This document shows, in pieces, positions 11,350 to 33,062 of a DNA stretch of 38,391 bases (position 1 is the stretch's first letter; the number at the start of each line of letters is the position of its first letter). The translations under genes and the position numbers were made by a program. The notes beneath the pieces were generated by a model. The model saw only the letters and a program-made list of their open reading frames with translations, made no database searches and was not told the DNA's origin. The stretch is taken from assembly GCF_900182725.1 (NCBI RefSeq), contig NZ_FXTO01000033.1, positions 1 through 38,391 on the forward strand, given 5' to 3'. Source of the DNA: Thalassovita litoralis. GTDB lineage: Bacteria; Pseudomonadota; Alphaproteobacteria; Rhodobacterales; Rhodobacteraceae.

Positions 11350-11380
11350 TTGAACCTCTAGTTGCTAGACGTTTTAGCGT
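11350..11380 (+). promoter_or_regulatory. MerR-type promoter/operator 1 (L,D-transpeptidase)
   Basis: TTGAAC, then CTCTAG-TTG-CTAGAC, four bases, then TAGCGT, giving a 19-bp spacer. The core TCTAG-TTG-CTAGA (11357-11369) is a perfect dyad. Same architecture as the other five MerR sites on this plasmid. Confidence 0.8.
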
Positions 11381-11438
11381 CGAGCAAATCGATCTGACAG
11401 ATCCGACACCGAAATAGAAACTGCGCGGAGCACGATAC

Positions 11439-12104
11439 ATGCTGACAAGACGACACTTCATCCAGACGACTACCGCATTGTTCTCGGCGTCTATCTCGAG
11501 TCCGCTCCTCGCTGACACCTGGCCCACTGAAGCGGAAAAGGCTGCTTGGGATGCACAGGTTACACCGCCGGGCTATAATCCAGCCACATCAAACCCGTGG
11601 GGCCTGCATCCGCGCTTTCTGCCGCAGCGGGTTGTAGCTAAAGATGGTCTTGTGGCCGGTGACATCCATGTCGATGCTGTTGCGCGCTATCTTTACCATA
11701 TCGAGGAAGGCGGAACGGCGATGCGCTATGGCGTAGCGATTGCTCGTGGCAAACTTTATGAGCCGGGTGTCTACACGATTAAGCGCAAGGTCAGGTGGCC
11801 GCATTGGCAGCCAACACAGAACATGATTGACCGCGACCCGGAGCTCTACGCCGATATCGCTGACGGTATGGAACCCGGACCTGAGAACGCGCTCGGGTCA
11901 CGGGCGCTTTATCTCTTTGTCGGGGACCGAGACACCTATCTGCGCATCCATGGTACACCACAGCCGCGAAGCATCGGCGGCCGAGCAAGTTCCGGTTGCG
12001 TCCGGATGGTCATGGCGCACATAAACGATCTGTATCCGAATGTGGAGATTGGCTCGATGGCGTTCCTATATTCGGCCGAGGACAGCGTGACTCCGCAGAG
12101 TTGA
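11439..12104 (+). CDS. L,D-transpeptidase (YkuD domain), Tat-type signal
   Basis: Encodes 221 aa. The N-terminus (LTRRHFIQTTTALFSASIS) is a twin-arginine-like signal peptide. The YkuD domain follows, with catalytic signature H171-G...S-S-G-C187-V-R. Such enzymes make 3-3 peptidoglycan cross-links or attach proteins to peptidoglycan. GGAG about 9 bases upstream supports the start. The gene is monocistronic behind MerR-type site 1 and faces a small lipoprotein gene. Metal-induced cross-link remodelling is the inferred role. Confidence 0.92.
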   Translation: MLTRRHFIQTTTALFSASISSPLLADTWPTEAEKAAWDAQVTPPGYNPATSNPWGLHPRFLPQRVVAKDGLVAGDIHVDAVARYLYHIEEGGTAMRYGVAIARGKLYEPGVYTIKRKVRWPHWQPTQNMIDRDPELYADIADGMEPGPENALGSRALYLFVGDRDTYLRIHGTPQPRSIGGRASSGCVRMVMAHINDLYPNVEIGSMAFLYSAEDSVTPQS

Positions 12105-12143
12105 CCCAAGCCGCGCCGTCAATCCGACGCTTGGACGCGTCAA

Positions 12144-12413
12144 TCAGGATTGGCGCGCGACGCAGATGGGATTGCCGCCTGCCGATCGCAACGGGACCAA
12201 GGTCGTTTCCACAGGCCCACTATGCGCATACCAATAGCAATTATCTTCGGGACGTAGCCGTGCCGTGTTGAGATCCTGGTCGGGTGCAGCGAGGGCTGCG
12301 ACAGATTCTGGAATATTCCCGACCCTGAATGGATCGTTGTCTTCCTTCGGAGGTACCGCACAGCCAGCCAGGGCCAATGTTGCAACCATGATCACCGCAT
12401 ATTTTTGAAGCAT
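12144..12413 (-). CDS. Small lipoprotein of unknown function (89 aa)
   Basis: Encodes 89 aa beginning MLQKYAVIMVATLALAGC, a lipoprotein signal with lipobox LALAGC and acylated Cys at about 18. The mature part contains NCYWYAHSGPVETTLVPLR and ends ICVARQ, leaving two further cysteines that could pair. The start at 12413 is chosen because the signal peptide begins there. It converges with the L,D-transpeptidase (39 bases between stops). I recall similar short lipoproteins beside L,D-transpeptidases in Rhodobacterales; that is not verified here. Confidence 0.75.
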   Translation of the reverse strand: MLQKYAVIMVATLALAGCAVPPKEDNDPFRVGNIPESVAALAAPDQDLNTARLRPEDNCYWYAHSGPVETTLVPLRSAGGNPICVARQS

Positions 12414-12518
12414 ATCTATCTCACTTTTTGGCAGGTCAGCCGCGTCCACAGACTTGGCAACGCGTTTCAAGGTTCCGCAGATCGGTGTCCTTACTTGACC
12501 AAGTTTCTGTTTTAGCTC

Positions 12519-12549
12519 TTGAAGCTCTAGTTACTGTAGGGGCTATCTC
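12519..12549 (+). promoter_or_regulatory. MerR-type promoter/operator 2 (P-type ATPase)
   Basis: TTGAAG, then CTCTAG-TTA-CTGTAG, GGGC, then TATCTC with a 19-bp spacer. It lies 34 bases upstream of the ATPase start. Confidence 0.85.
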
Positions 12550-12582
12550 AATGTGGAATGAACGAATCCCGAGGTCAATCCC

Positions 12583-14979
12583 ATGTCTTCCAATGGCCAC
12601 CGCCACGACCACAAGCACAGCTCTGACTGCAGTCACGATCATGTTGATGATCACAAACATGCGAGCGTAGCTCGCTACTCTCATGGAGATGGTGCTGCGT
12701 GCTGCGGTGCTGGAGCCAACACGGGACCGGCAGAATCCATCCCGTCGAATGGGCGAAGTTTTCAAGTTTCCGGTCTGGATTGTGCCGAAGAGGTGGCAAT
12801 CCTGAATAGGGTGGTCGGTCCAAAAGTCGGCGGGACTGAGCATCTGGCGTTCGATGTCATCAATGGGCGGATGACAATTCTGGATACCGCAGTCGGGATT
12901 TCGGACAACGAGATTTCGCAACTGGTCGCGAGTACCGGCATGAGCGCAAAACCGTGGGACGCCGACAACGCAGCAGAGAATCAGGCCGCGCATCTGGCAC
13001 GTCAAAAGCGGTTTACCGCGCTCAGCGGCGGCTTCTGGGTGGCAGGTTTTCTCTACCACATCGTCGAAACCGGCATGGGTGGTGCGCTCGGGCTATTCGC
13101 AGGGCACGGAGAAATGCCGATGCCACTCGCGGAAGCAGGGTTATTCGCGGTGGCAATTCTCTTCGGGGTCTGGCTGGTCGCGCCCAAGGCTTGGTCTTCC
13201 GCGCGACGGTTTTCCCCTGACATGAACTTGTTGATGGTGGTCGCAGTGGCGGGTGCCATCGGGCTGGGCGAATTCTTCGAGGCCGCGACGGTTGCGTTTT
13301 TCTTCTCACTTTCGCTTTACCTTGAGAGCTGGAGTGTGGGGCGGGCCCGCAACGCGGTATCGGCCTTGCTGGATCTGGCGCCGCCGACAGCTCGGGTGAT
13401 CCGATCAGATGGCAGCGAAACCGATGTGCCTGCGGCAGAGGTCGCCGTGAACGATCGCTTCATTGTGCGCGGCGGCGACCGCATCCCCCTCGACGGTGAA
13501 GTGGTGGAGGGGGCGGGAGCCGTCGATCAGGCTCCCATTACCGGAGAAAGCGCGCTCGTGCCAAAGGAGCCGGGCGATGAGGTCTATGCCGGCACGATCA
13601 ACGGCGAAGGCACACTGACGGTACGAGCGACCAAGGCAGCTTCCGACACAGTGTTGGCCAAGATCATCCGTCTGGTCGGTGATGCCCATGCCCGCCGCGC
13701 GCCGGTCGAGCAATGGGTGGCGAAATTCGCGCGCATTTATACACCCATCGTGATGGCGGTGGCGATCACCATCGCGGTGGTGCCGCCACTCTTGCTCGGC
13801 GGCGCCTGGGACTATTGGTTCTACAATGCGCTGGTCCTTCTTGTCATCGCATGTCCTTGCGCACTGGTCATTTCTACGCCGGTGTCCATTGTAGCAGCGC
13901 TGGCCGCTTCGGCGCGAGCAGGGGTGCTCATCAAGGGCGGCGCTTATGTCGAAGCGCCAGGGCGCACCACAGCGCTGGCGATGGACAAGACGGGAACGAT
14001 CACCATGGGCGAGCCTGAGGTGGCGGCGGTTCACCCGCTGGGTGAAGCCTCCGCTCGCGAAATCATCACGCTGGCAGCCAGTCTGGAGGCGCGGTCCTCG
14101 CACCCGCTGGCACGCGCCATCCTCGCGCGCGCAGAAAGCGATGGTGTTTCCGTGTCTGCCGCAGAGGACACGCGGACCGTGCCTGGGCGCGGGCTCGAAG
14201 GACGCGCCGACCGGCGCGCGATCTGGCTCGGATCAGATCGGTTTGCCCAAGAGAAAGGTTTCAGCAATGCCATTCCGGCGGATCTTCGGGACCGGATCGA
14301 AGGGGCAGGCAGCACCCTGGTTGCCGTGGGTGACGAGACCGGCGTGACCGGCGTGCTGGAGCTTCGTGACCGCATTCGCCCCGATGCAAAGGGTATCGTT
14401 GCGCGTCTGCACGCGCAGGGTGTGAAGACAATCGTGATGTTGACGGGCGACAACGAACGCACCGCACGTGCGGTGGCGGCCGAGGTCGGCATTGACGAGG
14501 TGCGCGCCGAACTCTTGCCAGAAGACAAGGTGAAGGCCATCGAGGAACTGGTGGAATGCCACGATATGGTGGCGATGATCGGCGACGGCGTGAACGACGC
14601 GCCCGCAATGGCGCGCGCGCATTATGCCATTGCCATGGGGGCTGTCGGATCGGATGCGGCGATCGAAACGGCAGATATTGCACTGATGACCGACGATCTG
14701 GCTCGAGTGCCGTGGCTGATTACTCACTCTCGGCGGACAATGACGATTATCCACCAGAATATCGGTATATCGCTGGCAACAAAGGCGCTGTTCGTCGGGC
14801 TGACCGCGTTCGGGATGGCCTCGATGTGGGGCGCCATCGCTGCGGATGTAGGCGTTTCCCTGTTGGTGGTCGCCAATGCGCTGCGGCTTTTGAACGGCCA
14901 TCGGATCAAGGACGGGCCTTCGGGCGGTGAACCGGTGGGCGAGCAGATGGCGAAGGGAGCACTGGCGCACGGTCATTGA
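12583..14979 (+). CDS. zntA: Heavy-metal P1B-type ATPase (Zn/Cd/Pb/Co exporter)
   Basis: Encodes 798 aa. Residues 1-35 are rich in His and Cys (HRHDHKH, CSHDH), a metal-binding tail. The HMA domain (about 58-130) has GLDCAEE with a single Cys (C67) instead of the usual CxxC. The membrane CPC motif is at 424-426, the phosphorylated Asp at 468 (DKTGT), and GDGVNDAP begins near 667; TGES lies near 320. CPC with these features places it in the divalent Zn/Cd/Pb group of efflux pumps in the inner membrane. It is preceded by MerR-type site 2 and probably cotranscribed with the next gene (63 bases). Confidence 0.93.
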   Translation: MSSNGHRHDHKHSSDCSHDHVDDHKHASVARYSHGDGAACCGAGANTGPAESIPSNGRSFQVSGLDCAEEVAILNRVVGPKVGGTEHLAFDVINGRMTILDTAVGISDNEISQLVASTGMSAKPWDADNAAENQAAHLARQKRFTALSGGFWVAGFLYHIVETGMGGALGLFAGHGEMPMPLAEAGLFAVAILFGVWLVAPKAWSSARRFSPDMNLLMVVAVAGAIGLGEFFEAATVAFFFSLSLYLESWSVGRARNAVSALLDLAPPTARVIRSDGSETDVPAAEVAVNDRFIVRGGDRIPLDGEVVEGAGAVDQAPITGESALVPKEPGDEVYAGTINGEGTLTVRATKAASDTVLAKIIRLVGDAHARRAPVEQWVAKFARIYTPIVMAVAITIAVVPPLLLGGAWDYWFYNALVLLVIACPCALVISTPVSIVAALAASARAGVLIKGGAYVEAPGRTTALAMDKTGTITMGEPEVAAVHPLGEASAREIITLAASLEARSSHPLARAILARAESDGVSVSAAEDTRTVPGRGLEGRADRRAIWLGSDRFAQEKGFSNAIPADLRDRIEGAGSTLVAVGDETGVTGVLELRDRIRPDAKGIVARLHAQGVKTIVMLTGDNERTARAVAAEVGIDEVRAELLPEDKVKAIEELVECHDMVAMIGDGVNDAPAMARAHYAIAMGAVGSDAAIETADIALMTDDLARVPWLITHSRRTMTIIHQNIGISLATKALFVGLTAFGMASMWGAIAADVGVSLLVVANALRLLNGHRIKDGPSGGEPVGEQMAKGALAHGH

Positions 14980-15042
14980 TCCGACGTCTTCGGTAGAGTA
15001 ACCTCTGGCACCAACAGACCTCGCAAAAAGGGGCGTCGAGCA

Positions 15043-15555
15043 GTGACAAACACCAGATTTCCACGGCGCGCCTTTTTGATGGGCGGATTGGCCTCCTTCC
15101 TGTCAGGTTGTGCCAGCAAGTTCCGGTCTTACAACGGACCCGAAGTGACCCGGCTACGCATGTATAAGGCACAGCGGTTTCTGGTTCTGGACGGGGTGGA
15201 TGACGTCTTGCGGACCTATCCCATCGGATTAGGCTTCGCGCCCGAAGGTCACAAGCAGTTCGAGGGGGACGGCCGTACGCCGGAGGGCTCCTACGTGATT
15301 GATCGGCGCAACCCGGAGAGCCTCTTTCACCTGTCGATTGGCATCTCATATCCCAACGCGGCAGACATCGCTTTTGCGCAGGCTCAAGGAAAGTCGCCCG
15401 GTGGCGACATTTTCATCCACGGAGGACCGCGCAAGGGGATCGACCCAATGAATGTCCGCGACTGGACGGCAGGCTGCATCGCCGTCACTGACCGCCAGAT
15501 CGAGGAAATCTATGCCATGGTCAGGGACGGGACACCGATCGACATTTACGCCTAA
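15043..15555 (+). CDS. L,D-transpeptidase lipoprotein (YkuD domain)
   Basis: Encodes 170 aa from a GTG start. The N-terminus has FPRRAFLMGG (twin-arginine-like) running into lipobox FLSGC, so it is probably a Tat-exported lipoprotein. The YkuD catalytic signature is HGG at about 126 and DWTAGC with Cys145, followed by IAVTD. It is a different subfamily from the 11439 enzyme (HGG...TAGC rather than HGT...SSGC). It follows the P-type ATPase by 63 bases on the same strand, suggesting shared induction. An acylated substrate for LspA and Lnt is thus encoded on the same plasmid. Confidence 0.9.
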   Translation: MTNTRFPRRAFLMGGLASFLSGCASKFRSYNGPEVTRLRMYKAQRFLVLDGVDDVLRTYPIGLGFAPEGHKQFEGDGRTPEGSYVIDRRNPESLFHLSIGISYPNAADIAFAQAQGKSPGGDIFIHGGPRKGIDPMNVRDWTAGCIAVTDRQIEEIYAMVRDGTPIDIYA

Positions 15556-19851: not shown

Positions 19852-19872
19852 CGCAGTCTCCGAATTCAAAAG

Positions 19873-19916: not shown

Positions 19917-19945
19917 TCCTGCAGTTTCCCTGCAAAGTCCCAACT

Positions 19946-20659: not shown

Positions 20660-21652
20660 TCAAAGCGCATAGACAATTGTCACCACCGTCGTCATGACGA
20701 TGAAGAACATGACCAAGGCACCTATGGCGAGCGTCCGGCCCATGTCGCGGTTTGGCTCTGCTACTTTCAGACGCAATTCTTCGGCCGTTTCCGGAAACTC
20801 GAGCGCCGCGGAGTTTGACCCTCGCACCAACTCGTATCGTGAATTCCAGCGACGCACCTCGGCCGCGTTCCACCCGTTCATGACCAGAATGATCGCGGCG
20901 ATCATCAGCATCGAGGACGGGACCCAGATCGTGTAGCCACCCATGGTTTCGTCGGACAGGGGATCGAGAAACCCGGTTCCCGCCGTTTGGTAGGAAGCAT
21001 AGAGGCTCACCTCTTTGAGTGTCGTCAAGGAACCCAGAAAAATGTTTGAAACGATCACCGCGAAACCGGAGATCAGCCTTGCGCCGCGCCTCGCGCCCTC
21101 AGGGGGATCTCTCGGGTCGAAGAGCATGCCGAAATACCAGATCCCTGCCAGCACCATCGCAAAATGGGCGAACACCTCGATCGCCGCGATGCGCTGAGCA
21201 AGTCCGTAAAGCACTGGAATCTGCCAGATAAAGAGCGACGTGATGAGCGCGGCAGTGGCGGTTACCGGATGTGCCAAGAACCGAAATGCAAAAGATTTTC
21301 CAAGAGCGTCGAGGTATCGACGCCACCGTCTGTTCAAACCGGCTTGCAATAATCGCCACGGCTGAGAGACCGCGAAGAGTAGTGGTCCTGCAAGGCGGAG
21401 GAGAAGGTGCTCCACTTGGTGCACCGAAAAGAGGCTATGCCCCAACGAAGCCAGAGGCGCATTTGTGGCCGCGAGAATGCAGGTCAAGCCAGCGAGGAAC
21501 AGGGCTTGCCGCCACATAGACACCGTCCCGCGAATGCGAGCGGATCGCACGAGGCCGCGCATGTAGACCCATGCGGCCAAGCTGACGGAAACAAGGGACA
21601 CTGGCGAAATCGCATACCCAAACGGGTCGAAAAGGAGGAAGTAAGTGATCAT
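20660..21652 (-). CDS. ctaG: caa3-type cytochrome oxidase assembly protein CtaG
   Basis: Encodes 330 aa with seven or more membrane segments. The family pattern is visible in HSLFSVHQVEHLLLRLAGPLLF (conserved His pairs) and HPVTATAALITSLFIWQIPVLY. The family is linked to copper insertion into the CuA/CuB centres of terminal oxidases and to copper import. Last gene of the long minus-strand operon; its ATG overlaps the stop of the penicillin-acylase-like gene (21649-21652). It differs from Cox11-type CtaG. Confidence 0.87.
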   Translation of the reverse strand: MITYFLLFDPFGYAISPVSLVSVSLAAWVYMRGLVRSARIRGTVSMWRQALFLAGLTCILAATNAPLASLGHSLFSVHQVEHLLLRLAGPLLFAVSQPWRLLQAGLNRRWRRYLDALGKSFAFRFLAHPVTATAALITSLFIWQIPVLYGLAQRIAAIEVFAHFAMVLAGIWYFGMLFDPRDPPEGARRGARLISGFAVIVSNIFLGSLTTLKEVSLYASYQTAGTGFLDPLSDETMGGYTIWVPSSMLMIAAIILVMNGWNAAEVRRWNSRYELVRGSNSAALEFPETAEELRLKVAEPNRDMGRTLAIGALVMFFIVMTTVVTIVYAL

Positions 21653-23568: not shown

Positions 23569-23592
23569 TTCGTTGCCGGTGCCAAAGCAATC

Positions 23593-23760
23593 TCAAGACG
23601 TGATGCGCAAGAGGATCACCGAGGCGAAAAAAGCGAGTAGGCCGAAAGCAATACCGAAGCCTGTCGCGTATTGAAGTATATCCAGGCGGTTCCCTTTCTG
23701 CCGTTGCGCCAGATAGCCACCCCAGAGCGCCCCTCCGACAAAGCCTGCGAGCACCAGCAT
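23593..23760 (-). CDS. Small two-helix membrane protein (55 aa)
   Basis: Encodes 55 aa with a glycine-rich first helix (MLVLAGFVGGALWGGYLAQ), a short basic loop (RQKGN) and a second helix (FGIAFGLLAFFASVILL). The start at 23760 has GGAGG about 9 bases upstream and overlaps the lnt stop (TGATG), strongly supporting translation. I do not recognise the family. It lies between lnt and the acylase-like gene in the same operon. Confidence 0.75.
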   Translation of the reverse strand: MLVLAGFVGGALWGGYLAQRQKGNRLDILQYATGFGIAFGLLAFFASVILLRITS

Positions 23761-25331
23761 CACGATTCCTCCGATTTTGATTTTTCTGAATTGAAACGTC
23801 GTCTGGCCGATCCGACGGTAAAGGCTAAGGCCCAGACCGCACAGATGAGCGCCAGCGATGTCCAATCACCGAAACGTGCGTAAGGTGTAGGCGCAAGCGC
23901 TGTCGGCAGGGTGGCATCTATGACTCCAGTTTGTCCGGTCTCGAGGCGCGCGATGATCTCTCCCTTGGCGTCGATGATCGCGGAAATCCCCGTGTTGGCC
24001 GCCCGGACCACAGGAAGCCCTTCTTCGACCGCGCGCATGCGCGCGGAGGCGAGGTGCTGCTCGGGGCCGATGCTGGTACCGAACCAGGCATCATTTGTTG
24101 CGTTGAAAATCCAGTCGGGGCGAAAAAGGTCATCGACCACCTGGCCCGGAAAAATGATCTCGTAACAGATCGCCACCGCGACCAGAGGCGCACCCGGGAT
24201 CGCCAGCGTGCGTGGCCCTGGTCCTGGCGTGAAATCGCCCAAACCTTCGGTGAGCCGCTCGATCGGCAGCCAGCCTCTCAGGGGCACATATTCCCCGAAC
24301 GGAACAAGATGATGTTTTGCATATCCCGTCAGAATTTCGCCGTTGCCGTCATAGGCTTGAACCGTGTTGAAATATCGGGTTTCCCCATCGCCCTCTACGC
24401 GGTCAGGCACTCCTGTCAAAAGGATCCTGCCGTCTGGCAGAACCGTGGATAACCGCCTGCGCGCCAAGGCGTCCTCGTCCAGAAAACCGGGAAAGGCCGT
24501 TTCCGGCCACAGCAGCAGGTCGAAGCGTCCAGGTTGCGCAGACAAGCTCAAGTATTTTTCCAGTGTTCGCTCGCGGCTGCCCGGTGCCCACTTCTCGACT
24601 TGCGGCACATTGCCCTGGACGATGCGCAAAGCGATGTCCGTCGGCGGCACATCCGTCCCTGAACGCAGCGCGCCGCCACCCCAGAGGCCCATCACCGCAG
24701 CGGCGAAGAGCACGAGAACAGGCACGCGTCTGTTTGGTGCCGCCACAATCAACACACCGGGCAACAGCCCGATAAAGACCGTGAGAAAGCTTAGCCCATA
24801 GCTTCCGACCCAGGCGGCCGGTTGGCGCAGGGCGGCATGTTCGACAAGAGCATAAGCGGCAAGGTTCCAGGGAAACCCCGTCAGGACATGACCGCGCAGC
24901 CATTCTGCGGCAACCCAGCAGGTTGCAAGCAGAAGACCTGCCGTAATGCCGCCGACAGCACGGCGCTGCATGATGGTGGCAAATAACATCGCCGCAATCG
25001 CTGGGAATATGGCCAGTCCGGCGGACAGTCCCGCGACTGCCGGGATCGCAAGGGCACCGAAACGTTCGGCATCGACGTAGAAGCTCTCGGCGATCCAGGA
25101 AACTCCAAACCCGAACTGGCCCATTCCGAAGACCCAGCCGATGAAGAAGGCGGGCGCTGTCGAAACCTGCCGGAGGACGAGAAAGAGTGCTGAGAAGGCG
25201 ACCGGAACAACGATCAGCCATGAGAATGGTGGAAGGGTTAAAACCGTTAAACCGCCCGCTGCAAAGCTAATCCCTGATCGCAGGGGAATGTAACGGCCAC
25301 GACCCGTCAGTGGTCGCAAGCCCGCCATCAT
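23760..25331 (-). CDS. lnt: Apolipoprotein N-acyltransferase
   Basis: Encodes 523 aa: about six to eight N-terminal membrane helices (to about 220) followed by a periplasmic nitrilase-like domain. The catalytic triad is visible as E277 (WPETAFPGF), K339 (AKHHLVPFGEY) and C389 (AICYEIIFP), close to E267/K335/C387 of the E. coli enzyme. It adds the third acyl chain to lipoproteins. The ATG at 25331 overlaps the lspA stop. A plasmid-borne extra copy, next to lspA, suggests extra demand for mature lipoproteins during metal stress. Confidence 0.95.
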   Translation of the reverse strand: MMAGLRPLTGRGRYIPLRSGISFAAGGLTVLTLPPFSWLIVVPVAFSALFLVLRQVSTAPAFFIGWVFGMGQFGFGVSWIAESFYVDAERFGALAIPAVAGLSAGLAIFPAIAAMLFATIMQRRAVGGITAGLLLATCWVAAEWLRGHVLTGFPWNLAAYALVEHAALRQPAAWVGSYGLSFLTVFIGLLPGVLIVAAPNRRVPVLVLFAAAVMGLWGGGALRSGTDVPPTDIALRIVQGNVPQVEKWAPGSRERTLEKYLSLSAQPGRFDLLLWPETAFPGFLDEDALARRRLSTVLPDGRILLTGVPDRVEGDGETRYFNTVQAYDGNGEILTGYAKHHLVPFGEYVPLRGWLPIERLTEGLGDFTPGPGPRTLAIPGAPLVAVAICYEIIFPGQVVDDLFRPDWIFNATNDAWFGTSIGPEQHLASARMRAVEEGLPVVRAANTGISAIIDAKGEIIARLETGQTGVIDATLPTALAPTPYARFGDWTSLALICAVWALAFTVGSARRRFNSEKSKSEES

Positions 25332-25801
25332 GTGCCAGTTTTCAACTTGGCGCTCAACCAAGGGGCTATGAGCAGTAGGCCCACGCCACTGACCACGAAA
25401 ACATCCGCCATGTTGAAGGCGGGCCAATGCGTGGATCCGACATAGAAATCGAGGAAGTCCGTCACACCCCGAAACCGGATGCGGTCGAGGACGTTGCCGA
25501 GCGCGCCACCGATAATCGCACCATAGGCGATAGCCTCGGCCCGGTTGTCAGTGCGCAATAACATGACAGTCAACCAGCCGCAGACCGCGAGGGCCAACAC
25601 TGTAAGGCTCCACCATGGCGCTCCACCAAGTAATCCAAATGTCACGCCATCGTTGCGCAGGTAGATGAGATTGAAACCGGGAAAGACCGGAACTCCGGCG
25701 CTCAAATCTGCCGCATTGGCGACGACAATTGCTTTTGTCACCTGATCGACAAGAAAAGCAGTTCCAGCCGCAAAGAAACCTTGGAAATGGGACTGTTTCA
25801 T
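25328..25801 (-). CDS. lspA: Lipoprotein signal peptidase
   Basis: Encodes 157 aa with four membrane segments and the catalytic aspartate motifs GNVLDRIRFRGVTDFLDF and FNMADVFVVSG. It removes signal peptides from prolipoproteins. GGAGG about 8 bases upstream of the ATG at 25801 sets the start, which lies one base after the ZIP gene stop. LspA homologues are recurrent passengers of metal-resistance operons (for example the pbr lead-resistance genes), which fits the MerR-type control here. Confidence 0.93.
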   Translation of the reverse strand: MKQSHFQGFFAAGTAFLVDQVTKAIVVANAADLSAGVPVFPGFNLIYLRNDGVTFGLLGGAPWWSLTVLALAVCGWLTVMLLRTDNRAEAIAYGAIIGGALGNVLDRIRFRGVTDFLDFYVGSTHWPAFNMADVFVVSGVGLLLIAPWLSAKLKTGT

Positions 25802-25802
25802 C

Positions 25803-26654
25803 TCATCCTCCCAGCCATACATCGAGGAACAACATGATCACCAGGCCAACCGCGAGACCGAGTGTCGCCCTGTTTTGATGGCCAGAACGGTGGGTTTCGG
25901 GAATGATTTCGTGGCTGATGACGTAGAGCATCGCCCCGGCGGCGAAGGCGAGGCCCCATGGCAACAGCGGCTGCGAGATGCTGATGATCCCAGCCCCAAG
26001 AAGCCCGCCTACCGGCTCGACAAGACCTGTCAGGGCGGCAATGCCCCACGCACGGCGCCTGGAATATCCCTCACCAAGCAATGAGACCGCTACGGCGAGA
26101 CCCTCGGGAGCGTTTTGCAGCCCAATGCCAATCGCAAGCGGCAAGCCACCAGAAAGACCGTCAGCCCCGAACCCGACACCAACGGCGAGTCCTTCGGGGA
26201 AATTGTGGATCGTGATCGCGATGATGAAGAGCCAGACGCGGCGCAGCGAAGCAGAGTCAGGGCCTTCCCGCCCCGACTTGAAATGCTCATGCGGCAGCCG
26301 TTCGTTCATCAGAGCGACCGCGCCCATGCCAAGCAAGATAGCAACACAAACGATGGCCGCCGGGAGAGCACCGTTGTCGAACTGTCCTTCGGCTGCATCG
26401 AGAGCCGGGATGATCAGCGAGAAAAACGATGCAGCGAGCATGACACCCGCTGCAAAGCCAAGTAGCAGATCGCGTGTAGCCCGGGATGGGATGCGCCCGA
26501 AAAGAACGGGGATCGCCCCGACCGCTGTCAGCGATCCGGCGGCCAGACTTCCTAGAAAGCCAAGGGTAATTGGGGAGAGGGGTTCCAAGCGTTGAGGTCT
26601 CGTCGATACGTCAGTCAGCGGCCGAATAACTGCTAAAGATCTCGGTCGATCCAT
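25803..26654 (-). CDS. ZIP-family divalent metal transporter
   Basis: Encodes up to 283 aa with about eight membrane segments. The metal-site helices are visible as ITIHNFPEGLAVGVGFG and GIGLQNAPEGLAVAVSLLGEG, the paired HNxPEG and QNxPEG motifs of ZIP proteins similar to ZupT and GufA. ZIP proteins generally bring Zn, Fe or Mn into the cytoplasm; some members act in the other direction. The ATG at 26654 lies inside the end of the DUF411 gene (44-base overlap) and has a poor ribosome site, so a TTG near 26588 is an alternative start. Confidence 0.88.
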   Translation of the reverse strand: MDRPRSLAVIRPLTDVSTRPQRLEPLSPITLGFLGSLAAGSLTAVGAIPVLFGRIPSRATRDLLLGFAAGVMLAASFFSLIIPALDAAEGQFDNGALPAAIVCVAILLGMGAVALMNERLPHEHFKSGREGPDSASLRRVWLFIIAITIHNFPEGLAVGVGFGADGLSGGLPLAIGIGLQNAPEGLAVAVSLLGEGYSRRRAWGIAALTGLVEPVGGLLGAGIISISQPLLPWGLAFAAGAMLYVISHEIIPETHRSGHQNRATLGLAVGLVIMLFLDVWLGG

Positions 26655-27069
26655 CGCCGCGGATCAGGAAGACCTCATAAGCCTCTCGATCGTCTTCCGG
26701 TCCCATGCCCGGCGATCCATAGGGCATTCCGGGCACCGCCAACCCCACTGCATCTGGACGCTCATCCAACAAACGCTGAATGTCTGATGCCGGTACATGT
26801 CCTTCGATCACGTAGCCGTCGACCAAAGCCGTATGGCAGGAGACCATGCGCTGAGGCACGCCATTGTCGAGTTTGAAGCGCACAAGAGATCCCCCGAACA
26901 TGTCCTCGCCTGTCGGCGCGAATCCGCTTTCCTCGAGGTGCTTCATCCAGGACAGACAACAGCCGCAGCCGTTTGTCTTCCGGACATCAATCTGGATCGC
27001 ATCGGCGACCGCTTGCGCTGCGGGAAACAAGGCCAGCGTGACTGCAAGGGCGGGAGCCAGTCGTTTCAT
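26611..27069 (-). CDS. DUF411 periplasmic metal-binding protein
   Basis: Encodes 152 aa with a signal peptide (KRLAPALAVTLALFPAAQAVA). The mature N-terminus has VRKTNGCGCCLSWMKHLE, the Cys-rich DUF411 hallmark, and SCHTALVDGYVIEGHVPA follows, together offering Cys and His ligands. The C-terminal GMPYGSPGM stretch is also typical. Members are usually found in copper or heavy-metal resistance clusters. AAAGG precedes the ATG. Confidence 0.9.
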   Translation of the reverse strand: MKRLAPALAVTLALFPAAQAVADAIQIDVRKTNGCGCCLSWMKHLEESGFAPTGEDMFGGSLVRFKLDNGVPQRMVSCHTALVDGYVIEGHVPASDIQRLLDERPDAVGLAVPGMPYGSPGMGPEDDREAYEVFLIRGDGSTEIFSSYSAAD

Positions 27070-27072
27070 GGA

Positions 27073-28446
27073 TTAAAGCCTTTCGGTTGTTGTTTGCACA
27101 AATTCGCTGGTGAGCCTCTCGGCCAGTAGCGAGCGTGCCTCAGCCAATCGCTCAAGTGCAGCCGTGTCATCCGCATCCCGCTCGGCCGCCTCTGCCAGTC
27201 TGTCGTCTGAGAGAGGATCGGTCGGGCGACCATCGACTAGAACCTCATAATGGAGATTTGGGCCGGTCGCGGTGCCGGTCGCACCGACGCGACCGATCAT
27301 GTCTCCGGCCAAAACGCGCTGCCCTTGTTCGAGTGTGTCCGGCACCTCGCTGAGATGTGCGTATCGTGTCAGGGTGTCGGATCCATGCGCTATCTCCACC
27401 ACCCGGCCATATCCACCACGACGTCCGATGAAGCTCACGCGTCCGGGTGCTGTCGCTTTCACCGGCGTACCGCGGGCCGCAGCAAAGTCGACCCCGGTGT
27501 GCATGCGCACATTCCCATAGACCGGGTGTGTGCGACGGCCAAAGACGGAACTCAGCCGCGCTCCTTCCACCGGTTGGGCAAAAACACGCAGGACCTCTCC
27601 ATCGACATAGATCGTTGCTTCACCGCTGCCGTCATCCGGCCAGACGATCTCGTAGACCGTTTCACCAAGGTCCAGTGTGGCAAAGGCAAGTTCGGGCTGA
27701 CCGATCCTCTCGTTTCCGTCGCGGGCTTCGCGCCAAAGAATACGCATCGTCTCGCCACCGGAAAGTTCGCGTCGAAAATCTACTGTGCCGCCCAGCATCT
27801 GCGCCATGTCGACCGCAAAACGAGCAGGGATGCCTGCTTTGTCCAACGCCGCGAAGACAGAGCTTTCGATCACTGCCTCGCCCGCGAACGTCACCATTTC
27901 AGGGTCTGGCTCCAACACGCGTGTGACAAGTTCTTGACCAAAGACCGTTTCGATCCGCACCCCATCGTCAACTGCCAGTTCCACGCGGCTCGGATTTCCG
28001 TCCACCTTTGAGATCACAGTGATCTCATGGCCCGGGCGCAATCGGCGCAGGTCATATTCTGCACCAAGCGCGAGCGCGATTTCGGCACGCGCAGGCGCAG
28101 CGATACCCGCGTTCGCCAGGACCGCATCCAGCGTCTCGCCCGACGCGATCTCACGCGACCAAGTGATCAAAGGCGGTTCAATCTCGGGCAAGGCGGTTTC
28201 TGCGAAGACAGATTGCAAGAGCGGCAGAGGTCGCATTGGGCTAGCATTGTCGGCGTGAAATGCAGCGGGCGGTGTCACATCGTAGTCGGCGATCTGAGGC
28301 ATCGAGAGCGGATCGGGAGTCCAGAGGGTCGCTTCAGCAATCGCAGGAGGCACTGGCTCTTTAGAAAGAACGCCAGAAATGGCGATGGCGGTCAGCGAAA
28401 AAGCGCCTGCGACCACAGCGCTCGCCAAAACAATTCTAATCTTCAT
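27073..28446 (-). CDS. M23-family peptidoglycan endopeptidase
   Basis: Encodes 457 aa with an N-terminal anchor or signal (KIRIVLASAVVAGAFSLTAIAIS). The middle region resembles OapA/LysM-like substrate-binding domains (ASGETLDAVLANAGI). The C-terminal LytM/M23 domain carries zinc-ligand motifs RMHTGVDFAA and LHYEV, followed by a charged helix rich in Ala, Glu and Arg. It should cut peptide cross-links in peptidoglycan. The ATG overlaps the stop of the SCO gene upstream. It complements the two L,D-transpeptidases of the plasmid. Confidence 0.92.
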   Translation of the reverse strand: MKIRIVLASAVVAGAFSLTAIAISGVLSKEPVPPAIAEATLWTPDPLSMPQIADYDVTPPAAFHADNASPMRPLPLLQSVFAETALPEIEPPLITWSREIASGETLDAVLANAGIAAPARAEIALALGAEYDLRRLRPGHEITVISKVDGNPSRVELAVDDGVRIETVFGQELVTRVLEPDPEMVTFAGEAVIESSVFAALDKAGIPARFAVDMAQMLGGTVDFRRELSGGETMRILWREARDGNERIGQPELAFATLDLGETVYEIVWPDDGSGEATIYVDGEVLRVFAQPVEGARLSSVFGRRTHPVYGNVRMHTGVDFAAARGTPVKATAPGRVSFIGRRGGYGRVVEIAHGSDTLTRYAHLSEVPDTLEQGQRVLAGDMIGRVGATGTATGPNLHYEVLVDGRPTDPLSDDRLAEAAERDADDTAALERLAEARSLLAERLTSEFVQTTTERL

Positions 28447-29069
28447 GTTGCCCCCTCTACGTCTTCTGTCAGTGCACGCCGGATCTTCGGCACTGCGAAT
28501 TCTCTTGGCTCGTGATAGTCAATCATGGTGACGAGTTCACCCTTGGCATCGAACAGGAATACGCTTGCCGTATGGTTCATTGTATAGTCGCCGCCTTCGG
28601 TCGGGACGCGCTCATACGAGGCACGAAATCCTTCTGCAGCGCGGGCAACCTGGTTTGCCGGCCCAGTCCAGCCGCGAATAGCCGGATGAAAATAGCCGAC
28701 ATATTCGGCCATGGCCTCGACCGTGTCCCGCTCCGGATCGACTGTGATGAAGACCACGTTCATCCGCGCGGCGTCGTCCCCGAGATCTTCAAGCCAACCT
28801 GAGATATCCGATAACGTCGTGGGGCAGACATCCGGGCAGTAGGTGAACCCGAAAAACACCATGGTCGGGCGTCCGATCAGGGTTTCCGGGCCCACTTCAT
28901 TGCCTTCGTGATCGGTCAGTCGGAAATCCATCGCCGACAGGGGGAGAGGCCTTTGGCCGGCCGGTTTTGGTGCACCGGGACCATCCACCCGCCACCAACC
29001 GACGCCGAGCATCAGAGCGACAGCGCCTACACCGGCTGCACCGTATTGGACCACATGTCGACGCTGCAT
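28443..29069 (-). CDS. SCO1/SenC-family copper chaperone (copy 2)
   Basis: Encodes 208 aa with an N-terminal anchor beginning RRHVVQYGAAGVGAVALML. The thioredoxin-like domain has FGFTYCPDVCP (CxxxC copper site) and the distal ligand His in YTMNHTASVFLFD. SCO proteins deliver copper to, or reduce, the CuA site of cytochrome oxidase. The start overlaps the PCu(A)C gene stop by one base. A second SCO gene (30649-31251) is in the same operon. Confidence 0.93.
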   Translation of the reverse strand: MQRRHVVQYGAAGVGAVALMLGVGWWRVDGPGAPKPAGQRPLPLSAMDFRLTDHEGNEVGPETLIGRPTMVFFGFTYCPDVCPTTLSDISGWLEDLGDDAARMNVVFITVDPERDTVEAMAEYVGYFHPAIRGWTGPANQVARAAEGFRASYERVPTEGGDYTMNHTASVFLFDAKGELVTMIDYHEPREFAVPKIRRALTEDVEGAT

Positions 29070-29536
29070 CAGCTCTCCGGCCCGCGCGCGGCGATCCCCA
29101 GAATTGGGACCTCAACAGTCACTTCACCACCGTCCGAGAACGTCAGTGTCAGTGGGAAGGTCTCGCCTTCGATCATCGGGTTTTGCAGCTTCATGAGCAT
29201 GGCGTGCAGCCCTCCCGGTTCCAATGCTACGCTTTGGCCCGGTTCAATCGTGATTTCGTCAGCAGGCGCCATAGAACTGACGCCGTCGGCGTTGGTTTTC
29301 GTCTCATGGATCTGGGGCATCACGGCCAGTGGTGTTGTAAGCCCGGTCAGCGTGACCGTGTCTTCACCGGTGTTGCGCACAGTCATATAGGCCGCACCAG
29401 GGCGGTTGACCCCGATTGAAGCACGGGACCACGCGTTTTCGACGACCACATCCTCCGAACCGGCAAATGCCGGAGTCGACATGCCCGAGAGTAGCAAGAC
29501 AAGGGGCAAACCATTGATGTAAGATCGTTTTGTCAT
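29069..29536 (-). CDS. PCu(A)C periplasmic copper chaperone
   Basis: Encodes 155 aa with a signal peptide (YINGLPLVLLLSGMSTPAFA). The conserved H(M)x10Mx21HxM-type copper ligands are visible: MPQIHETK, then SSMAP, then GGLHAMLMKL. PCu(A)C passes Cu(I) to SCO or directly to cytochrome oxidase. GGAG precedes the ATG at 29536. Its pairing with a SCO gene is the classic arrangement. Confidence 0.93.
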   Translation of the reverse strand: MTKRSYINGLPLVLLLSGMSTPAFAGSEDVVVENAWSRASIGVNRPGAAYMTVRNTGEDTVTLTGLTTPLAVMPQIHETKTNADGVSSMAPADEITIEPGQSVALEPGGLHAMLMKLQNPMIEGETFPLTLTFSDGGEVTVEVPILGIAARGPES

Positions 29537-29564
29537 GAAGAATTCTCCTGTATCTGGCCGAGCA

Positions 29565-30224
29565 TCAACTTTGGCTGGCCGCAACTTCCGCAGCCACCAG
29601 TCGCCGCAGTTCGGCCTCACCGAACGGGTCTAATGGCTTGGCGTTGACGAAGAACGTGGGCGTTTGTCGCACGCCTACCGCTTCGACATCAGCGCGGTCC
29701 TGATTGAGCACCGCCACGACACCGGGGGCCAGCATCTGTGTCCGAGCAGCTTCGACATCCAGACCACCGCTTGCGGCAATCTCAAGGATCAAACCCGGTG
29801 CCGGAGTGCCATGGGACGCCCATCGCGGCTGCTCGCGCAGGACCGCTTCCAGCACGGGTTCGAACACATCCTGCATCCGCGCAGCTTCGAGAACACGGAT
29901 CGCTTCCACCGAAGCGTCCCCGTGAAACGCGGTGTATCGAATTACGACACGGATCGCATCACCGTGCTCAGCCATGATCTCTTTGACCACGGGATAGAAT
30001 GCGCGGCATGCCTCGCAAGCTGGATCGAAAAACTCGACAATCGTGACAGGTGCCGTTTCGGGGCCGAGGATCGGGGAATAGGGCCGGATCAGCACATCGT
30101 TCACTTCGGGCGCGACAGGGACTGCCTCTGCCATGGGTTGGGGGCGGGTGGCATACCAGGCCGCGCCGCCAAAACCTGCGGCGCCAACAGCCAGAACGGA
30201 TAGAACGAGGCCGCGTCGATTCAT
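29565..30224 (-). CDS. DsbA-like thiol-disulfide oxidoreductase
   Basis: Encodes 219 aa with an N-terminal signal/anchor (NRRGLVLSVLAVGAAGFGGAAWYA). The thioredoxin fold has VEFFDPACEACRAFYP (active site CEAC), and the cis-proline loop is at VRQTPTFFVNA. It is of the type that partners with the DsbB-like protein encoded just upstream. The ATG at 30224 overlaps the dsbB stop (ATGA). It probably forms or maintains disulfides in periplasmic metal proteins. Confidence 0.9.
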   Translation of the reverse strand: MNRRGLVLSVLAVGAAGFGGAAWYATRPQPMAEAVPVAPEVNDVLIRPYSPILGPETAPVTIVEFFDPACEACRAFYPVVKEIMAEHGDAIRVVIRYTAFHGDASVEAIRVLEAARMQDVFEPVLEAVLREQPRWASHGTPAPGLILEIAASGGLDVEAARTQMLAPGVVAVLNQDRADVEAVGVRQTPTFFVNAKPLDPFGEAELRRLVAAEVAASQS

Positions 30225-30643
30225 GTTTGTTTTTCCTTCAGTGAAAGGGCCGACAGCATCCCGATCATCGTGAAGGCGACAAGCGCCAACAGCGGAATCG
30301 GAATGCCGAAGACCACCTGGTTGTCGTCGGTACAAGAGGGGCCGGTCGCCGTGCAGGGCTGGATCGCCTCGGGGATCAGCCCGACATAGAGGCCGATGTG
30401 ATACAACGCCACTGCCGCCCCCCCAAGCGCTAGCGCAACGCCATAGCGCCCCACGCGGGGATCCTGCCACCACAGCCCGAGCCCAAGAACGATAGCCAGG
30501 GGGAACATGAAGGCGCGCTGGAACCAGCAAAGGACGCAAGGCGTTTGACCAAGCACCTCGCCAATAAAGAGCACGGCAAGCGATGCGATAAGCGCAATGA
30601 TCCAAGCAAGAACAAGGGCCGCTTCTCCGGAAAGGCGGGTCAT
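30221..30643 (-). CDS. dsbB: DsbB/BdbC-family disulfide bond formation protein
   Basis: Encodes 140 aa with four membrane segments. Redox cysteine pairs are PCVLCWFQR (CxxC after helix 1) and a periplasmic-loop pair (QPCTATGPSC), as in DsbB-type quinone-linked oxidases. It reoxidises the DsbA-like partner encoded next. It follows the first SCO gene by 5 bases. Confidence 0.92.
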   Translation of the reverse strand: MTRLSGEAALVLAWIIALIASLAVLFIGEVLGQTPCVLCWFQRAFMFPLAIVLGLGLWWQDPRVGRYGVALALGGAAVALYHIGLYVGLIPEAIQPCTATGPSCTDDNQVVFGIPIPLLALVAFTMIGMLSALSLKEKQT

Positions 30644-30648
30644 GGCAA

Positions 30649-31251
30649 TCAGATCCTCTTTCTCAGATCCGCAAGGATCTCTTCGGCGGGTGTGCCGTAG
30701 GGCCAGGAATTGGCGAAGCCCGCCCGCGGATCAAAAAGAAACAGGTGCGATGTGTGCCCCATTGTGTATCCACCCGGCGCGGTGGCCTCCTCGATCCTCT
30801 CAAAGAAAATTGGGAAGGTCTCGGATGTTGCGGCGATCTGCTCCGGCGTGCCGGTCAGCCCGATGATCCCAGCGTCGAACAGGGGCACATACCCGGCAAG
30901 TGCTGTCGGCGTATCCCGCTCCGGATCAATCGTTATAAAGATCGGCTGGACCTTTGCCGCCTCGTCGCCCAAGCCCTCCATCACGGCCGCGACTTCGGAC
31001 AGTGTTGTTGGACAGACGTCGGGGCAATTGGTGAAACCAAAGAAGACCAGCATCCAGCGCCCTGCGAAATCTTCGTCTGTTTGGACCATGCCGCGATGAT
31101 CCGTGAGTTCGAACTGCGCAAAGAAAGGTGGTTCGGTCTCGGCTTGGGCAAGGTCGGCGCGGTAGTCCGCCCACATTAGCAGCCAGATGAAAACGAACGC
31201 CGCCGCGCCCGCCAAAACCCATAGTACTTTCTGAAGATTTGAAAGCTTCAC
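30649..31251 (-). CDS. SCO1/SenC-family copper chaperone (copy 1), first gene of the long operon
   Basis: Encodes 200 aa from a GTG at 31251. An N-terminal anchor (VLWVLAGAAAFVFIWLLMW) precedes the thioredoxin-like domain with FGFTNCPDVCP and the distal His in YTMGHTSHLFLFD. It is the promoter-proximal gene of the 13-gene operon; MerR-type site 3 lies about 36 bases upstream, putting the expected transcription start about 30 bases from the GTG. It differs clearly in sequence from SCO copy 2. Confidence 0.92.
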   Translation of the reverse strand: MKLSNLQKVLWVLAGAAAFVFIWLLMWADYRADLAQAETEPPFFAQFELTDHRGMVQTDEDFAGRWMLVFFGFTNCPDVCPTTLSEVAAVMEGLGDEAAKVQPIFITIDPERDTPTALAGYVPLFDAGIIGLTGTPEQIAATSETFPIFFERIEEATAPGGYTMGHTSHLFLFDPRAGFANSWPYGTPAEEILADLRKRI

Positions 31252-31286
31252 GCGCTCCGCCCGAATTTGATTCTATATTTTCAGCG

Positions 31287-31317
31287 CGTTTACACCCTCT
31301 AGCTACTGTAGGTTCAA
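31287..31317 (-). promoter_or_regulatory. MerR-type promoter/operator 3 (13-gene operon)
   Basis: On the minus strand: TTGAAC, then CTACAG-TAG-CTAGAG, GGTG, then TAAACG with a 19-bp spacer. It directs transcription toward the SCO gene at 31251. Confidence 0.85.
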
Positions 31318-31389
31318 GACTTATTATGGATGGAAGAGCGATGTTCACTGACCTGTGAGATGCCAAGCGGAACTTGTGCAAAAAAACGC

Positions 31390-31420
31390 TTAAAGCTACA
31401 CGGGCTGTAGATAGTCTGGA
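31390..31420 (+). promoter_or_regulatory. MerR-type promoter/operator 4 (merR autoregulation)
   Basis: TTAAAG, then CTACAC-GGG-CTGTAG, ATAG, then TCTGGA with a 19-bp spacer. The CTACA/TGTAG arms are perfect, but the -10 is poor, which suits low basal expression. It lies just before merR. Confidence 0.65.
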
Positions 31421-31428
31421 GAGATGAT

Positions 31429-31857: not shown

Positions 31858-31858
31858 G

Positions 31859-32185
31859 ATGACCGCAGTGCTCGTCTATCCGCTCGCGGCCTTGGCTGAG
31901 ATCGCCGGATGCTTTGCCATCTGGGCATGGTGGCGTCTTGGCGCGTCCCCTCTTTGGCTTGTCCCCGGTGTAGCGGCGCTGGTGGCGTTCGGCTGGCTTC
32001 TGGCTCAGGTCGACACTGTGGCTGCGGGACGCGCCTTTGCGGCCTATGGTGGGATCTATATTGCCGCGTCCATTCTCTGGATGTGGCTCGCCGAAGGGCA
32101 CCGGCCGGACAGGTGGGATCTGCTCGGCACCGCTGTATGCTTGTTGGGTGCCGCTATCATCCTCGCGGCACCCCGCGGAGCGTAA
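31859..32185 (+). CDS. ynfA: YnfA/UPF0060 family membrane protein
   Basis: Encodes 108 aa with four membrane helices. The family core is visible as [20 protein letters not shown] and [20 protein letters not shown]. YnfA is a small multidrug-resistance-type membrane protein; its substrate here is unknown. The ATG lies one base after the merR stop, so the two are cotranscribed. Confidence 0.92.
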
Positions 32186-32194
32186 AAAACGGCA

Positions 32195-32225
32195 TTGCTC
32201 CTACAGTAGCTTTAGCTTTTACAAC
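32195..32225 (+). promoter_or_regulatory. MerR-type promoter/operator 5 (ccdA)
   Basis: TTGCTC, then CTACAG-TAG-CTTTAG, CTTT, then TACAAC with a 19-bp spacer. It lies about 38 bases upstream of the ccdA start. Confidence 0.85.
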
Positions 32226-32263
32226 GGTGCGCGTTTCACAGGCTAAAGCAAGGCAGGAATTGA

Positions 32264-32998
32264 ATGTTCGAAATCTCAGGTGTTGGAATCGTCGCGGCTT
32301 TTCTGGGTGGCGCTATATCCTTTCTGTCGCCTTGCGTCTTGCCTCTTGCACCTGGCTACGTCTCTTACATCGCGGGACAGCCCGCCGCGAAATCCGGGGC
32401 GGCGCGCAGCATTGCCGAACGGGCGCGCAGCGTGGTCCTGAGTTTGTGGTTCGTGCTCGGGTTTTCGACAGTCTTCGTGGCGCTCGGGGCCGGGGCAAGT
32501 CTTTTGGGCGGGATGCTCTTGCGCTGGAAATACGAACTCGGGCTTGCGGGTGGCTTCTTGATCGTCTTGTTCGGACTTGTCATGATGGGCGCGATCAAGA
32601 TCCCCGCAATGATGCGTGACACGAGGCCCGACGTAAAAGTTGACGGCGGCAGCGCCGTTGGAGCCTACCTTTTGGGTCTTGCCTTTGCCTTTGGCTGGAC
32701 GCCCTGCATAGGCCCTGTGCTTGGGTCGATCCTGGCAGTAAGCGCGACATCTGGAGCGGACGGGATGGCCTTGCTGGCAATCTACTCCGCAGGGCTTGGA
32801 CTGCCGTTTCTAATCATAGCGCTCTTCACCAACGAGATTGCAGGCAGGCTAAAGCGGATCGGTGCGGCTGGTCGATGGCTCTATCGTATATCGGGCGGAC
32901 TGATGGTGCTGATGGGTATCGGCGTGATGACAGGTCAGATCAGCCGCCTTGCCTTCTGGCTGCTCGAAACCTTCCCGGCCCTTGGCACTATCGGATAG
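32264..32998 (+). CDS. ccdA: CcdA-type thiol-disulfide transporter (cytochrome c biogenesis)
   Basis: Encodes 244 aa with six membrane helices. The paired redox cysteines are in SFLSPCVLPLAPGY and FGWTPCIGPVLGS. CcdA moves reducing equivalents from cytoplasmic thioredoxin to periplasmic thiols such as SCO, PCu(A)C or haem-lyase partners. It has its own MerR-type promoter. It would counterbalance the oxidising DsbA/DsbB pair of the long operon. Confidence 0.93.
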   Translation: MFEISGVGIVAAFLGGAISFLSPCVLPLAPGYVSYIAGQPAAKSGAARSIAERARSVVLSLWFVLGFSTVFVALGAGASLLGGMLLRWKYELGLAGGFLIVLFGLVMMGAIKIPAMMRDTRPDVKVDGGSAVGAYLLGLAFAFGWTPCIGPVLGSILAVSATSGADGMALLAIYSAGLGLPFLIIALFTNEIAGRLKRIGAAGRWLYRISGGLMVLMGIGVMTGQISRLAFWLLETFPALGTIG

Positions 32999-33031
32999 AG
33001 CTGTGATCGAAAGTAACATTTGAGAAAAGGC

Positions 33032-33062
33032 TTGTCTCTCTAGTCACTGTAGAGATTAAGAC
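33032..33062 (+). promoter_or_regulatory. MerR-type promoter/operator 6 (transglutaminase-CDF)
   Basis: TTGTCT, then CTCTAG-TCA-CTGTAG, AGAT, then TAAGAC with a 19-bp spacer. It is nearly the same dyad as site 2. Confidence 0.85.

Follow-up and report, generated by a model that had tools for sequence, protein, structure and literature searches.

The locus examined here raises the question of whether one metal sensor can command a set of promoters scattered over a plasmid. In contig NZ_FXTO01000033.1 of Thalassovita litoralis (the window hereafter: one whole contig of 38,391 bases in an assembly totalling 4.11 Mb), a first-pass annotation had marked six promoters of identical MerR-type architecture with an exact 19-base-pair (bp) spacer, and had proposed that the window's MerR gene coordinates through them a regulon of about 20 genes in six transcripts. 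MerR dimers sitting in such 19-bp spacers are reported to repress without metal and to activate with it (PMC12301328). We find five such promoters, and consider it very probable that one MerR regulator of the divalent-metal class activates these five across the gene cluster, and probable that it limits its own synthesis through an operator in front of its gene, merR.

The letters quoted for the six sites were confirmed at all six claimed coordinates (11350, 12519, 31287 on the minus strand, 31390, 32195 and 33032). Five of the sites share TTGnnn, the dyad CTnnAG-N3-CTnnAG and TAnnnn with an exact 19-bp spacer, and thus have the dyad centred in a 19- or 20-bp spacer between -35 and -10, as in MerR-activated promoters; the site at 31390 does not. 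The five lie 34-76 bp 5' of gene starts, as measured on the identical copy in the plasmid of Phaeobacter inhibens P24. The looser core CTnnAn-N3-CTnnAn, which the six sites had been said to share, is unspecific alone: it has 31 matches on both strands of the window, 10 at the six sites and 21 elsewhere (shuffled windows have 9.0, standard deviation 3.2), and so cannot by itself single out the six. The full form, TTGNNNCTNNAGNNNCTNNAGNNNNTA, is found in the assembly at four exact sites and one with a single mismatch, all inside the window, and at zero or one mismatch it never occurred in 40 shuffles of the window. The other 24 of its 29 matches in the assembly have two mismatches; one of these is site 12519 read in reverse, and 23 are elsewhere. 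All three occurrences of the core CTNTAGNNNCTNTAG in the assembly are in the window.

A matrix scan likewise returned the six named sites as the six best distinct places in the window, with scores of 41.6 (12519), 37.3 (31287-31317, minus strand), 30.7 (11350), 25.3 (32195), 17.8 (33032) and 15.3 (31390), compared with a best score of 13.5 among 100 shuffled windows. The 28 exact sites behind this matrix come from 17 loci in relatives, 30-mers that duplicate window sites having first been taken out; the matrix is only partly independent, since its training sites were picked by the fixed pattern and some are orthologous to sites of the window. The reversed pattern was dropped as a clean null: in the same genome, at two mismatches, it has 180 matches against 29 for the pattern, an excess probably due to the rarity of CTAG-like words there, while at zero mismatches over 101 genomes it has 34 against 92. 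An Rfam search gave no match reaching the gathering threshold.

Conservation was followed in 130-bp upstream regions of orthologues (found with tblastn) from the window, from 24 loci and from 80 loci of a genome collection, thinned to less than 85% identity. Among these distinct regions the site is exact in 15/15 before the transglutaminase-like gene and in 11/12 before the P1B ATPase gene (the remaining one at 4 mismatches), and is present at zero or one mismatch in 18/20 before the SCO gene, the other two being at 7 mismatches. Control genes of the same cluster have no site at three mismatches or fewer within 130 bp in any of 35 regions (YnfA 0/6, LspA 0/14, M23 0/10, MntR 0/5), and shuffled upstream regions have none at zero or one. 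The site keeps a near-constant distance from the start codon: 33-35 bp at the transglutaminase gene and, in most cases, 76 bp at SCO and 36 bp at the ATPase. Compared in pairs, the 15 transglutaminase sites have an identity of 1.00 over the fixed positions and 0.61 over the free positions of the site, with 0.36 for the 25 bp preceding it and 0.48 for the 20 bp following it; because the fixed positions are kept while the flanks have diverged, an operator under selection accounts for the sites better than recent common descent.

The two remaining promoters are less conserved, with a site at zero or one mismatch in 7/15 regions for the L,D-transpeptidase gene LDT1 and in 6/10 for CcdA, and one half-site of the LDT1 promoter is altered in the window. 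This would suit a narrower regulon, in which only the ATPase, SCO and transglutaminase promoters are conserved members and those at LDT1 and CcdA are local copies with little function. Both sites nonetheless match the pattern exactly or with one mismatch in the window, have the correct spacing and are kept in several diverged copies, and we regard such a restriction as unlikely.

It is at merR that the first-pass annotation, which counted merR's own promoter among six identical MerR-activated ones and so made the sensor self-amplifying, parts from what we find. The dyad at 31390 does keep its position, in its loose form, in 27/33 distinct upstream regions, and ranks sixth in the window by the relatives' matrix. 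The site nevertheless has three mismatches to the full pattern, lacking both a TTG at -35 and a -10 spaced by 19 bp, and the -10 claimed for it, TCTGGA (31415-31420), overlaps the GGAGAG ribosome-binding site before the merR ATG at 31429; among 35 distinct merR upstream regions none has a full-pattern site at zero or one mismatch, the best having two. What 24/33 regions do contain is TTGnnn-N16/17-TAnnnn (23 with N17, one with N16), in which TAnnnn starts inside the left half-site of the dyad; this element arises in 0.15% of shuffles, and in 4.3% when the dyad is kept and just the 45 bp upstream are shuffled. With a 17-bp-spacer element whose -10 falls in the dyad and no -10 at 19 bp, 31390 was rejected as a sixth activated promoter. 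Since the -10 lies in the dyad in 24 of the 33 regions, autorepression is likelier than activation at merR, and an ordinary promoter repressed by its own product is probably the simplest reading. For Pseudomonas aeruginosa CadR, section 3.4 of PMC12301328 reports that transcription of its own gene was unchanged in vitro, which also speaks against an activated merR promoter; a self-amplifying sensor with six activated promoters thus seems to us distinctly improbable.

The regulator itself is of the class that had been claimed. Its matches to PF13411, PF09278 and PF00376 are all above cut-off, giving the N-terminal helix-turn-helix and C-terminal DNA-binding/dimer domain of the metal-responsive branch, and C78, C113 and C121 align with the cysteines of CadR and are invariant in 14 sequences; the divalent-metal subclass (CadR, PbrR, ZntR) is marked by one cysteine where the dimer helix begins and two in the loop. 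Its nearest solved relatives are CadR and the MerR-family protein 5gpe (E ~3e-26). None of the NCBIfam equivalog cut-offs was reached (CueR 120.3/147.4, CadR-PbrR 110.5/151.45, MerR 111.7/150.85, ZntR 105.9/167.95 bits). A loop histidine as metal ligand, as in ZntR, is out, H117 being unconserved in the 14 sequences; the tail residues H130, C133 and H137 (H130-x2-C133-x3-H137) are invariant in them and could form a possible second metal site. The genome has eight MerR-domain matches, this regulator being one. Four others were read and lack the cysteine set; one of them is a long protein and another a CueR-like protein on a different contig, C21. The last three match weakly, in frames of 406-417 residues, and include the window's ParA-like partition protein, whose N-terminus matches a MerR-type helix-turn-helix.

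The sites track this regulator across genomes. In a set of 292 genomes from the order, 164 of the 165 that have a homologue at 1e-30 also have an exact site, while the 127 genomes with no such homologue average 0.14 exact sites, 14 of them having any. The number rises with similarity to the regulator, from a mean of 1.37 in 90 genomes (best E-value exponent -55 to -31) through 2.07 in 27 (-72 to -56) to 3.75 in 48 (-73 or lower; 180 sites). Because genomes can hold multiple homologues as well as sites of other MerR proteins, this tally overstates the targets per regulator (of the closest 48 genomes, 22 have several homologues at 1e-30, and the 26 with one average 3.04 sites), and a per-locus count was therefore added. 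It covers 101 relatives with 45 places where a regulator homologue of at least 50% identity lies, and takes in 92 exact sites less 10 of the CTGTAG-N3-CTACAG dialect described below; it omits one-mismatch sites such as 11350, and draft contigs shorten some loci. A further set of site counts was kept out of the rates, as many of its loci are near-identical, some are truncated and two include one overlapping place twice. Within 25 kb of homologues of at least 73% identity there are 42 exact sites at 17 loci (mean 2.47, range 1-6), compared with 10 at 12 loci for homologues of 60-72% (mean 0.83) and 13 at 16 loci for those of 50-59% (mean 0.81).

This tracking also bears on a copper response, in which the CueR-type protein on C21 would control the cluster in place of the window's MerR. 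SCO, PCuAC and CtaG do serve copper centres, and the C21 frame (138 residues, following a P-type ATPase; named by eye) is CueR-like. The sites, however, track homologues of the window's MerR, the C21 gene has no such dyad within 400 bp upstream, and its protein has, by eye, a serine where the window's MerR has the third cysteine, C78. One of the targets is moreover an ATPase of the CPC type whose score passes the cadmium-subfamily cut-off and narrowly misses that for copper (391.5/397 bits). We give control by the C21 protein a marginally smaller chance even than the self-amplifying sensor, and take the third cysteine together with the ATPase scores to indicate a metal of the zinc, cadmium or lead class. 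That the repeats are a dispersed element or chance, with no regulatory role, has the commonness of the loose core in its favour but can be set aside almost entirely, given that matches at zero or one mismatch occur neither in 40 shuffles nor elsewhere in the assembly and that fixed positions are kept while flanks differ.

Table 1. Promoters, genes and neighbouring features of the window (positions in the window; weight of each assignment as worded).
Feature	Position	Strand	Basis and remarks
RepC	5228-6370		RepABC-type plasmid replication set
ParB-like	6524-7507		RepABC-type plasmid replication set
ParA-like	7492-8691		RepABC-type plasmid replication set
MerR-type promoter 1	11350..11380	+	TTGAAC; dyad CTCTAG-TTG-CTAGAC 11356-11370; 19-bp spacer; TAGCGT; 5' of LDT1; 1 mismatch to pattern
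L,D-transpeptidase LDT1 (YkuD)	11439..12104	+	Pfam PF03734
MerR-type promoter 2	12519..12549	+	TTGAAG; dyad CTCTAG-TTA-CTGTAG 12525-12539; 19-bp spacer; TATCTC; 5' of P1B ATPase; exact match
Heavy-metal P1B ATPase, CPC motif, His-rich N-terminus	12583..14979	+	TIGR01525 and TIGR01512 above cut-off; motifs
Second L,D-transpeptidase	15043..15555	+	PF03734; probably cotranscribed with ATPase; 63-bp gap (99 bp by P24-plasmid annotated start)
MauG-PhnDCE	15559-19851		PhnDCE-type transporter with MauG
mntR	19946-20416	+	Between 13-gene run and MauG-PhnDCE
13-gene run	20660..31215	-	Pfam; probably one transcript; borders offset from P24 plasmid annotation; no internal stops on translation
MerR-type promoter 3	31287..31317	-	TTGAAC 31317-31312; dyad 31311-31297; 19-bp spacer; TAAACG 31292-31287; heads 13-gene run; exact match
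merR promoter-like element	31374..31402	+	TTGTGC 31374-31379; N17; TACACG 31397-31402
merR operator, candidate autorepression site	31396..31410	+	CTACAC-GGG-CTGTAG; overlaps merR -10; site 31390 of the first-pass annotation
MerR-family regulator, divalent-metal class, 142 residues	31429..31857	+	Pfam; cysteine alignment
YnfA/UPF0060 membrane protein	31859..32185	+	NF002586 above cut-off; PF02694; next after merR
MerR-type promoter 4	32195..32225	+	TTGCTC; dyad CTACAG-TAG-CTTTAG 32201-32215; 19-bp spacer; TACAAC; 5' of CcdA; exact match
CcdA/DsbD-type membrane thiol reductant carrier	32264..32998	+	PF02683
MerR-type promoter 5	33032..33062	+	TTGTCT; dyad CTCTAG-TCA-CTGTAG 33038-33052; 19-bp spacer; TAAGAC; 5' of transglutaminase-like gene and CDF; exact match
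Transglutaminase-like protein	33092..33862	+	PF01841 (on frame from 33068)
CDF cation efflux gene, truncated	33852..34274	+	PF01545 partial (on frame 33765-34274)

The genes under the five promoters number 19, or 21 when merR and ynfA are counted; the proposed single regulon of about 20 genes under one sensor thus holds in size and in the way its sites follow the regulator, though with five transcripts and with the MauG-PhnDCE genes probably outside it. The 13-gene run reads SCO, DsbB (named solely from the P24 plasmid annotation), DsbA-like, PCuAC, SCO, M23, DUF411, ZIP, LspA, Lnt, a 55-residue protein, a penicillin-amidase family protein and CtaG, with overlaps or gaps of at most 28 bp, and it is from such spacing that we infer cotranscription within the runs. 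The ATPase gene lies about 16 kb from merR on the same strand, so that the two do not form a divergon of the CadR type. The CDF gene has 140 codons here and 314 in the P24 plasmid copy; since it ends where homology to other plasmids stops (34273), the window copy may lack this exporter.

Binding, the direction of control, the metal and the purpose are our proposals, built on the observed sites, spacing, conservation and tie to the regulator. Without metal, dimers on the dyads of the five 19-bp-spacer promoters would keep their activity poor; with zinc, cadmium or lead on the conserved cysteines, the dimer would distort the spacer, following the known MerR mechanism, and RNA polymerase would fire all five. 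The sensor would meanwhile curb its own synthesis, as the anatomy and conservation of the merR promoter suggest, with transcription from an ordinary promoter that has a 17-bp spacer and a -10 within the sensor's operator. The output would join exit of metal from the cytoplasm, through the P1B ATPase and the CDF protein (truncated here), to functions of the periplasm and envelope that such metals may poison. Among the latter, SCO, PCuAC and CtaG would supply CuA and CuB to cytochrome oxidase, DsbA, DsbB and CcdA would serve thiol chemistry, LspA and Lnt the processing of lipoproteins, and the L,D-transpeptidases and M23 the cross-linking of the wall. In Mesorhizobium, another alphaproteobacterium, zinc and cadmium are reported to induce CadA and CcdA, and zinc a signal peptidase II (PMC3668242), and in a cadA mutant of Rubrivivax gelatinosus cadmium is reported to lower the amount of active cbb3 oxidase (PMC7283390).

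We speculate, tentatively, that this is a mobile stress regulon grown by promoter recruitment from a single-target sensor-pump pair to five to seven promoters, whose main product would be protection or repair of metal-poisoned envelope assembly rather than efflux, and whose firing could be set by the HxxCxxxH of the sensor. What it would protect is CuA/CuB loading, disulfide chemistry, lipoprotein maturation and L,D-cross-links, to which Roseovarius-type copies would add cytochrome c maturation. Next to homologues of 68, 74 and 85% identity (L119, L117 and L111), the sole exact site precedes a P1B-type ATPase gene (Pfam was run for L111), which suggests growth from a single target.

Several points weigh against the reading of one divalent-metal sensor with five activated promoters. 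The -10 boxes of the five are weak apart from TA. No site is found in 8/15 distinct LDT1 regions (at least 5 mismatches within 130 bp), nor, at two mismatches or fewer, in 4/10 for CcdA. The relatives were gathered mostly through MerR similarity and the genomes are related, so the counts are not independent trials, and the per-genome totals include sites of other MerR proteins. A single exact site within 25 kb is found at 5/17 loci with close homologues, and the many-target state is therefore not universal. The P. aeruginosa CadR result opposes activation at merR yet would lend repression no support. The copper-assembly genes would also suit a copper response, and for a 102-kb plasmid of Dinoroseobacter shibae, on which copper and cobalt genes are annotated, resistance to copper, cobalt and zinc is reported as unchanged and that to silver as slightly up (PMC9426580).

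Among known systems, those of the CadR/PbrR/ZntR type share the three sensor cysteines, a dyad of the CTnnAG-N3-CTnnAG type (CTGTAG-TTG-CTACAG for P. aeruginosa CadR; PMC12301328, Table 1 in section 3.3), the 19-bp spacer and a P1B ATPase target. P. aeruginosa CadR, however, has two known targets, and cadR is usually divergent from cadA (PMC12301328, PMC1526738), whereas here there are five promoters and the ATPase is remote. The earlier statement that the targets far exceed the usual one or two is borne out against CadR, with cadA and zrd (PMC12301328), and not against the family, as P. aeruginosa CueR binds five sequences (PMC7922089). CueR is likewise one metal-sensing MerR protein with several dispersed promoters, but it senses copper, and the targets described in that source are for copper transport, a chaperone and an efflux pump; the regulon of the window is of the divalent class, plasmid-borne and made up chiefly of envelope and respiration assembly genes. 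The pbr operon of Cupriavidus metallidurans pMOL30 is also plasmid-borne, with a MerR-type regulator, a 19-bp spacer, a P-type ATPase and PbrC, predicted to be a signal peptidase; it differs in having six or seven genes in two divergent transcripts, and the parts of PMC3431237 and PMC1526738 drawn on here name no copper-assembly, Dsb or L,D-transpeptidase genes. Mesorhizobium metallidurans and strain STM 4661 share a CadA-type ATPase followed by CcdA, both induced by zinc and cadmium, and the zinc-induced signal peptidase II, but the corresponding part of PMC3668242 gives gene lists, with no single regulator or operator set assigned. Multi-target MerR regulons are thus already known, and the one in the window is larger and differs by its number of promoters, gene content and spread; a full-text literature search found no paper describing it among the matches listed, as judged by title and start of abstract.

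If correct, our reading would mean that MerR-type metal sensors, beyond switching pumps, can command a plasmid-mobile programme that protects envelope and respiration in marine bacteria. The series of relatives, with about one site near distant homologues and one to six near close ones, would allow a direct test of how a bacterial regulon grows, and the gene list flags periplasmic processes that metals of the zinc, cadmium or lead type may damage.

The MauG-PhnDCE block had been considered as part of a long minus-strand transcript, and this was rejected. Because mntR, on the opposite strand, separates it from the 13-gene run, and because in a diverged copy from Pacificitalea (L099) the interval from CtaG to the second L,D-transpeptidase lacks both mntR and MauG-PhnDCE, the block is probably outside the regulon; mntR and MauG-PhnDCE together (15559-20416) are possibly a separate module related to manganese or phosphonate. 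A terminator scan between the run and the block found 2, with 1.6 expected by chance. As for the spread of the cluster, a 3.7-kb core (30600-34273) is 100.0% identical, over 99% of the query, to six plasmid records of Phaeobacter, Tritonibacter and Celeribacter, and such identity on plasmids of three genera points to very recent transfer between genera.

The relatives' loci offer some further observations. The second operator dialect, CTGTAG-N3-CTACAG, adjoins MerR proteins of about 40% identity (for example at G003:C19:72386, G004:C8:24781 and G056:C31:14161); it resembles the published P. aeruginosa CadR site, and both dialects coexist in some genomes. In a Roseovarius copy (L100, 12676-20248) SCO and merR are separated by a DsbD gene and a cytochrome c maturation block that includes CcmF (assigned by Pfam on L128). 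The block has a MerR-type site of its own 5' of CcmF, and at the far end, 436 bp 5' of DsbD, the SCO promoter recurs together with a remnant like the start of the SCO gene. The same pair of sites is also found in L128, L129, L131, L133 and L134. Further sites precede a third L,D-transpeptidase gene (L098), a CtaG gene (L181) and a CBS-domain gene (L170), each in single relatives. A site like the transglutaminase promoter precedes genes for CBS-domain proteins at L170 11142 and L181 8606 (Pfam on the L170 protein), where these genes perhaps follow loss or replacement of the transglutaminase gene.

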